Below, piece after piece: positions 28,616 through 52,498 of a stretch of DNA of 64,000 nucleotides. The stretch comes from Liolophura sinensis. Lineage: Eukaryota; Mollusca; Polyplacophora; Chitonida; Chitonidae. Under the pieces are notes generated by a model, which saw only the letters and a list, made by a program, of their open reading frames with translations, made no database searches and was not told the origin of the DNA. The position numbers were made by a program, and so were the translations under genes. The stretch covers positions 20,393,338-20,457,337 of the forward strand of contig NC_088302.1 of assembly GCF_032854445.1 (NCBI RefSeq), written 5' to 3'. The first letter of the stretch is position 1, and each line of letters opens with the position of its first letter.

Positions 28616-29287
28616 ATGGCTGAAAGCAAGCTGAATCTGGAAGAGGATCTCTTATGTTCAATTTGCATGGAAATGTTCCGGAAACCTGTAGTGCTACCAT
28701 GTGAACACAGTTTCTGCAGGGAATGCATTGGTTTGTTTGCCGAAAAATCCAAATCTGAAGAAACAGATGATGTTTCCAAGAGCGAGGGAAAGGAAAACGT
28801 TTGTCAAGTGATATCTTGCCCTATGTGTCGGGCACTAACCACTTTGGGGAGGGACGGCGTAGACGGGTTGCCTGCGAACTTCCAGCTGGAAGAAATTGTG
28901 AATTGTAAATTCACATCTGGCGTAAGAGTTGAGGATAAAATCCCGTTTTGTGCTGTCTGTGAAAATGCCGAAAAGGTGACAGTCGTCAGGTTTTGCACCA
29001 CGTGTTGTGTGCTATACTGTGAAGATTGTTTGGCAGCTTTTCATCCTGTGAAAGGGGCGCTTAAACGTCACCGCGTGATTTCTTCGCAAGAGTACCTGTC
29101 AGAGAAAACATCAGAGTTTGAGGTAAAGACAGATAAAGATTCTAACTCTCAAGCGTCATGTGCCCTACACGGTCTGCCATTCTGTTTGTACTGTGTGCCG
29201 TGTGAGGTTGTTATTTGTCTGGATTGTATGGAGGAGCATGCGGAACATGGTACAAGAAATATCCGGTCTGCAGCGGAGAAAAATAAG
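28616..29287 (+). CDS. exon 1: RING and two B-boxes
   Basis: 224 codons, donor AAG|GTAAGA, phase 0 out. RING: CSIC (14-17), CEHSFCREC (29-37), CPMC (68-71), with an acidic, Lys-rich insert in the long loop. B-box 1 starts FCAVC at 111. B-box 2 is [12 protein letters not shown] ... [11 protein letters not shown] (182-211). The ATG follows an acceptor closely and begins a typical TRIM N-terminus. Confidence 0.92.

Positions 29288-52498: not shown

Follow-up and report, generated by a model that had tools for sequence, protein, structure and literature searches.

A candidate chimeric TRIM::macro::Deltex gene in the chiton Liolophura sinensis

Does the chiton Liolophura sinensis possess one gene that joins a TRIM head to macro domains and a Deltex ligase module, or do two genes follow one another at this locus? 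We explored this question in a window of 64,000 nucleotides (the whole stretch of DNA that was analysed, positions 20393338-20457337 of contig C8), in which a gene of this kind had been proposed on the forward strand between 28616 and 52498. We infer from the sequence that the two halves share a transcript, and we consider a candidate chimeric TRIM::macro::Deltex gene the best reading of the locus, with a probability of roughly 60%. The published assembly of this species comprises 609.5 Mb in 632 scaffolds, and RNA-seq of digestive gland, foot, gill, gonad and heart exists for it (PMC11068029); its species name was at first L. japonica and was later corrected to L. sinensis (PMC12441733). The window is free of any N, so the join between the TRIM and the macro-Deltex parts is not an artefact of gap filling. 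Among its other features are an open frame of about 626 codons at 3677-5557 (+), whose La domain (2.4e-23) and SUZ-C motif mark it as a La-related protein gene, a Tc1/mariner-type transposase (DDE_3, HTH_Tnp_Tc3_2) in a 337-codon open frame at 62701-63711 (-), and two large tandem arrays, one at 22069-22672 (a 29-bp unit repeated 21 times) and one at 24458-25916 (a 44-bp unit repeated 33 times).

Rebuilding the gene from sequence gave 12 exons from 28616 to 52498 (+) in one frame of 1,588 codons, with a single stop at the end, GT-AG borders at all 11 introns and compatible phases at every exon, an exact reproduction of what the original prediction had claimed. All exons lie on the plus strand. 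Exon 1 (28616..29287) holds the start codon, the TRIM RING, B-box 1 and B-box 2; exon 2 (30348..30443, 96 nt), which has a counterpart in six paralogs, begins the putative coiled-coil region; exon 3 (32028..32258, 231 nt) carries the putative coiled coil; exon 4 (33170..33192) is a microexon of 23 nt that restores the phase; and exon 5 (33453..33634) ends the TRIM head at a phase-1 donor, ACAA/GTAAGTTCTT. A series of exons of 96, 231 and 23 nt is typical of vertebrate TRIM genes, a rule for which we found no source in the open-licence literature. Intron 5 of the proposed chimera (33635..40764, +) spans 7.1 kb, and no SPRY exon was found in it. It is followed by exon 6 (40765..40805, 41 nt), which is entered in phase 1 and left in phase 0, and by exon 7 (41306..42527), with a linker and the N-terminal half of macro domain 1. 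The remainder of macro 1 and the first part of macro 2 are in exon 8 (43881..44483), the remainder of macro 2 and the first part of macro 3 in exon 9 (45565..46236), and the remainder of macro 3, a Cys-rich RING-like cluster, the Deltex RING and the start of the DTC domain in exon 10 (48138..48832). The middle of the DTC, including its catalytic His (H1541 of the model), is encoded by exon 11 (49645..49862), and its end, with the catalytic Glu (E1567) and the stop codon, by exon 12 (52387..52498). Exons 6-12 recur in a second copy (copy E, below) at 95-99% DNA identity and are thus more than chance. One loop is the site of a phase-1 intron in all three macro domains, as duplication of an exon unit predicts, and either exon 8 or exon 9 could be skipped without a change of frame.

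The domain reading proposed earlier for this protein was right. The N-terminal RING is matched by Pfam zf-RING_UBOX (2.8e-11, residues 14-46) over the curated cut-off, and the two B-boxes come slightly below theirs (PF22586, residues 111-154, 23.3 bits vs 27; PF00643, residues 179-216, 22.1 bits vs 24.1); both B-box domains are listed for many related TRIM proteins in our set of 41 matches to the TRIM head. Over the putative coiled coil, exon 3 and its counterparts in six TRIM paralogs are 55-60% identical. Pfam Macro (1.2e-45) matches three stretches of the 1,588 residues, the second RING is over its curated cut-off (zf-RING_2, residues 1394-1434), and the DTC domain covers residues 1441-1573 (1.5e-58). 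The Cys-rich cluster near residue 1338 was recognised by its cysteines and has no Pfam name in the model protein; in the clam relative P0006, zf-RING_5 matches the corresponding position. In an alignment with DTX2, H1541 and E1567 correspond to H582 and E608 (DTX2 numbering counted by hand), so the catalytic His and Glu of the DTC, described as H582/E608 in DTX2 and H707/E733 in DTX3L (PMC10810221), are present.

Comparison with known structures gave the same picture of the macro and DTC domains. Solved relatives of the C-terminus include DTX3L 3pg6 (1.8e-49) as well as 6y3j and 6y22, the best matches of macro 1 are to PARP14 (3vfq, 1.9e-35; 3q6z, 3.7e-24), and the N-terminal head has solved relatives in TRIM3 and TRIM28. 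The comparison of predicted folds that had been suggested for this protein was made on P0001, a relative with 92% identity, whose structure model (mean pLDDT 68.9) contains three macro folds with a block confidence of mostly 70-90 and matches macros 1-2 of PARP14 (2.2e-25) and the DTC of DTX3L (9.9e-13) in the PDB; the Cys-rich stretch of this model is of low confidence and not resolved. Of the 11 DTC-bearing matches, 8 went into the structure alignment. By eye, macros 2 and 3 are without the Asn and the Gly-Gly of the ribose loop, and they look degenerate in their ribose-binding loops and are probably structural. With E allowed to reach 0.1, the Pfam scan of the model returned no KH, RRM or ART family.

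The TRIM half has many relatives in this genome. At least 104 exon matches to the TRIM head were scored, over half of them on contig C2; this count is a lower bound, since 103 of the 464 first-look candidates were scored. Contig C2 carries a large TRIM expansion. Among the scored matches, and with the window's own two rows set aside, the best identity elsewhere in the genome is at most 61%. Likewise, no protein near-identical to the TRIM head was found among its 41 matches of 221-703 aa (58% identity or less), a length range that leaves TRIM-head proteins of 704-872 aa outside. Six of the 104 matches were fetched as paralogs for the comparison of exons, SPRY and dN/dS. All six match the exon series of the window's TRIM head, and in each of them exon 5 is followed by a SPRY exon at a distance of 2.4-11.3 kb. 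In one of them (L028) the exon 5 donor is identical to that of the window and the SPRY exon is of phase 1; in another (L026) the SPRY exon starts in the same way as in L028. The head in the window resembles the L. sinensis TRIM-SPRY family (e.g. P0023 and P0024) in its RING, B-boxes and putative coiled-coil region but, where the six paralogs have a SPRY exon, it is followed by a macro-Deltex exon set instead. With 17 SPRY queries, picked by length and a motif from the 41 TRIM matches, no SPRY was found in 143 kb around the macro-Deltex half: the best match (E 5.8e-4) consists of 37 residues of an insert in P0054 and falls within the transposase frame at 62.7 kb, and the remaining ones have E of 0.09 or more.

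The macro-Deltex half, which we call copy B, belongs to a local family of copies. Copy A (34975..38906, +) lies in intron 5 and is an older, degenerate copy of the exon-6 to exon-9 sequence, that is, of the macro array; its reading frame is shifted near 37716, and this broken frame makes it an unlikely current partner of the TRIM head. Copy C (56039..60301, +) is a partial duplicate of intron 9, the 3' half of exon 10 and exons 11-12, in which the beginning of exon 10 is missing. Beyond the window, contig C8 carries two more copies on the opposite strand: D, which consists of fragments of exons 10-12, and E. Copy E is inverted and near-identical to B: it starts 23 kb downstream, its exons 6-12 are at 86.0-75.2 kb in window numbering, and it has 94.9% identity to B over the main 8.9 kb, with common splice sites for exons 6-11. 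The annotated protein P0001 joins E exons 7-10 to D exons 11-12 and skips the open exons 11-12 of E itself, which reflects either splicing between copies or an annotation error; it spans 20459769-20479537 of contig C8.

The 5' end of copy B is where it differs from its relatives. Homology to E begins at 40575, and the first 190 bp of the shared block (40575..40764, +) lead directly to exon 6. Beyond this boundary, 440 bp before its exon 6, copy E has an open candidate upstream exon (ATG at 86946, phase-1 donor CAG/GTTTGA at 86451, in window-based numbering). A second copy of this exon was not found in the 143 kb examined. Since it lies outside the shared block and has no such second copy, B has probably lost its native 5' exon. 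The E exon is itself a candidate only, because it was found to have no likeness to the first exons of P0002, a macro-Deltex gene on contig C6. In that gene, exon 3 (47 nt) has the phases and position of exon 6; the two exons before it are the gene's own, and a TRIM head was not found in the 10 kb upstream. A module of about 75 residues at the start of exon 7 is common to E and P0002 (by eye) and is missing from B through an in-frame gap of 84 codons. Pfam detects no KH domain in this E module or in P0002, the sole match being DUF987 at 0.0028, under the cut-off; that the module is KH-like by pattern and position is a guess. The best reading of these comparisons is that copy B is a duplicate with a truncated 5' end and an internal deletion.

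The choice between one gene and two turns on the junction 33634/40765, where the phase-1 donor of exon 5 meets the phase-1 acceptor of exon 6. We rejected the phase match as a proof by itself, as it has a 1-in-3 chance of arising. Two complementary half-genes on one strand, with phase-1 ends, are what exon capture after partial duplication is expected to leave. The fusion claimed in the original prediction gains from the truncation of B, from a TRIM without SPRY and from the apparent maintenance of both halves, but no database protein bridges the junction. A full-length co-linear match to the 1,588-residue model, for which a protein search had been proposed, did not appear: among 22 database matches with lengths of 873-2779 aa, 0 cover the TRIM head together with the DTC body, and a few TRIM proteins match the two RINGs only. 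The sequences of 7 of these 22 were inspected. A query with the junction, among proteins of about 160-510 aa, returned no bridging protein either, and neither copy E, near-identical to B as it is, nor P0002 has a TRIM head. Annotation may be incomplete, P0001 being an example. As the macro introns are all of phase 1, exon 8, 9 or 10 could also be joined to TRIM exon 5 without a change of frame.

Of the alternatives, the one that survives best, although we regard it as unlikely, is that of two genes: a short SPRY-less TRIM, read through its exon 5 donor to a stop at 33769-33771, and a separately transcribed copy B. The promoter of B would then be newly acquired, perhaps in copy A, and translation would begin either in a frame of copy A or at one of the internal Met codons of exon 7 (residue 494 or later). 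It is in favour of such a start that intron 5 contains four ATG-to-phase-1-donor candidates; two of these (103 and 63 codons) are in copy A, and their phase-1 donors could feed exon 6 as well. Against it, B is without the upstream exon seen in E, and a scan of 38.9-40.76 kb, run at a donor threshold equal to that used for E, gave two weak start-exon candidates only (25 and 31 codons). For the TRIM side, short SPRY-less TRIMs are annotated in this genome, such as P0034 (409 aa), whose C-terminal residues resemble a read-through of the same donor in L028. In the annotation, SPRY is in the domain list of 21 of the 41 related TRIM proteins and absent from the other 20, several of which are short fragments. 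These observations suit a separate TRIM gene, but the presence of a SPRY exon in all six fetched paralogs does not, and the read-through tail in the window would be a hydrophobic stretch of 45 residues. The failure of any protein found to bridge the junction also agrees with two genes, as does the annotated start of P0001 (copy E), which is without TRIM and begins at an internal Met equal to residue 708. That start would, however, cut into macro 1, and it is probably incomplete, because the frame of E is open for hundreds of codons upstream; coming from a model that joins E to D and ignores this open frame, it was rejected as a proof of two genes.

Whether copy B is maintained at all can be asked of its differences from E. 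Exons 7-11 show no net frameshift and no stop, while the introns hold 23 indels, 18 of them frameshifting, in 5,380 aligned bases; a neutral B would be expected to carry, in exons 7-11, about 5.6 frameshifts and, over exons 6-12, 3.1 stops, about 9 disabling changes in total. The ratio dN/dS is 0.59 overall and 0.19 for the RING-DTC, the overall dN being slightly too high because the base upstream of the first codon of exon 6 differs and the post-DTC tail is shifted by one base; this tail also ends differently in B and E. The 78 codons with which exon 7 opens, upstream of its earliest internal ATG, have 12 changes and a dN/dS of about 1, and both of the 2 changes in exon 6 alter an amino acid; with no sign of constraint in these stretches, which only a fusion would read, translation from upstream is unsupported there. 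For the TRIM head, comparison with the six paralogs gave, in exon 1, dN of 0.27-0.29, dS of 0.97-1.54 and pairwise dN/dS of 0.18-0.28; in exon 3, 0.23-0.27, 1.1-1.9 and 0.13-0.24; and in exon 5, 0.31-0.37, 0.91-1.2 and 0.26-0.39, respectively. These ratios are pairwise, with dS near saturation and both lineages averaged, and so leave present-day constraint on the window's TRIM unproven. Taken at this level, both the TRIM head and copy B look maintained.

A further explanation, which we hold to be improbable, is that B is a dying truncated duplicate without a product, kept intact by its youth and by gene conversion with E, next to an unrelated TRIM. The nearly equal divergence of exons (3.25%) and introns (3.68%) and an overall dN/dS as high as 0.59 point that way, as do the broken or partial states of the nearby copies A, C and D, and gene conversion between B and E could indeed help to keep the frame of B open. 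What this explanation does not account for is the absence from the domains of any of the expected disabling changes, the low ratio of the RING-DTC, and the large length differences between B and E in exon 7, which come in multiples of three. Finally, an ordinary TRIM-SPRY gene with an overlooked SPRY exon was rejected, as SPRY was found neither in the window nor in the 143 kb.

How new would a chimeric gene of this kind be? The macro-Deltex combination is not new in itself, being present in other molluscs and in a lancelet: single chains with macro, RING and DTC domains are found in L. sinensis (P0002), Solemya (P0005 and P0006), unionids (P0007 and P0011), Physella (P0012) and Branchiostoma (P0009). 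Ahead of the RING, the chiton proteins and Solemya P0006 carry an additional Cys-rich cluster. No alignment to the TRIM head was obtained with any of these macro-RING-DTC relatives; a different 5' module, which B has lost by deletion, is present in copy E and P0002. The TRIM-macro-Deltex combination was in no protein returned by the searches with the whole model, the TRIM head or the junction, and neither it nor a single-chain PARP9-DTX3L protein is described among the matches listed from the open-licence literature (titles and abstract openings), in agreement with the earlier remark that no such architecture was known. We also observed a 1049-aa protein of the fish Engraulis encrasicolus (P0004) with two RING-DTC modules and a domain list that includes PF25600, which we take to be the TRIM coiled coil; it is possibly a separate TRIM-Deltex mixture. 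A 1006-aa annotated protein of L. sinensis (P0003) combines a DDE_1 transposase-like domain with TRIM-SPRY, either as a merged annotation or as a transposase-TRIM fusion.

Among known systems, the closest parallel is DTX3L/PARP9, where the C-terminus is likewise a RING-DTC, the catalytic His and Glu agree with those of the model, and the macro domains are of its PARP9/PARP14 type. In vertebrates these are two proteins, whereas the macro and Deltex parts of the chiton are in one predicted chain, with no ART, no recognised DTX3L N-terminal domains, and a TRIM head in front. The model was therefore filed neither as DTX3L, for want of a recognised N-terminal RRM/KH, nor as PARP14 or a macroPARP, as it has no ART domain, even though P0001 carries a PARP14-like name. 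A second parallel is the partnership of human DTX2 with RNF114/RNF166, in which the Deltex enzyme is described as priming ubiquitin on ADP-ribose and a second ligase as extending it (PMC12583694). Human DTX2 and RNF114 are separate proteins; in the chiton, the TRIM RING could act second within the same chain. According to the same source (PMC12583694), RNF114 recognises the hybrid mark through a Di19-UIM module; no such family appeared in the Pfam scan of the chiton model.

Based on these comparisons, we propose that a 5'-truncated macro-Deltex copy B landed downstream of a diverged, SPRY-less TRIM gene. By exon capture, TRIM exon 5 would have exchanged its usual SPRY partner for exon 6: its phase-1 donor would now meet an acceptor, also of phase 1, that in a complete macro-Deltex gene is preceded by the gene's own first part. 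In the protein, as TRIM biology would suggest, the putative coiled coil would pair chains and bring the TRIM RINGs together. Macro 1, closest to PARP14 macro 1, would bind ADP-ribose on the target and, by similarity, may also remove it: removal of glutamate-linked ADP-ribose is reported for macro 1 of PARP14 and of PARP9, and macros 2 and 3 of PARP14 are reported to lack this activity (PMC10499325). Deltex enzymes are described as attaching ubiquitin to ADP-ribose by means of the His and Glu of the DTC (PMC10810221), and the RING-DTC of the model, with its complete RING and DTC and both catalytic residues, would likewise place ubiquitin on ADP-ribose itself. For human DTX2, ubiquitin on the ADP-ribose of PARP7 is reported to be extended by RNF114 (PMC12583694); by analogy, the TRIM RING could extend the first ubiquitin, a job that falls to a separate protein in that system. 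We therefore put forward, tentatively and at somewhat less than even odds, a single protein with two ligase heads (the TRIM RING and the Deltex RING-DTC) around macro domains, a self-assembling ADP-ribose reader, ubiquitin starter and extender that would have come from a captured truncated duplicate. Genes of the PARP14 type are described as having undergone repeated duplication and fast evolution, a pattern that is read as evidence of conflict between hosts and viruses (PMC13224862) and makes a role in immunity plausible by analogy with these families.

In conclusion, the candidate chimera, if true, would unite in one protein functions that in vertebrates belong to PARP9, to DTX3L and to distinct ligases that extend the chain. 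If expressed, it would offer a natural test of ADP-ribose reading, ADP-ribose ubiquitylation and ubiquitin extension as one machine, and it would be a case in which exon capture gave rise to a new ligase while a near-identical gene of the source type (copy E) persists next to it. More broadly, the macro-RING-DTC proteins of molluscs and the lancelet suggest that invertebrates have single-chain counterparts of the vertebrate PARP9-DTX3L pair.
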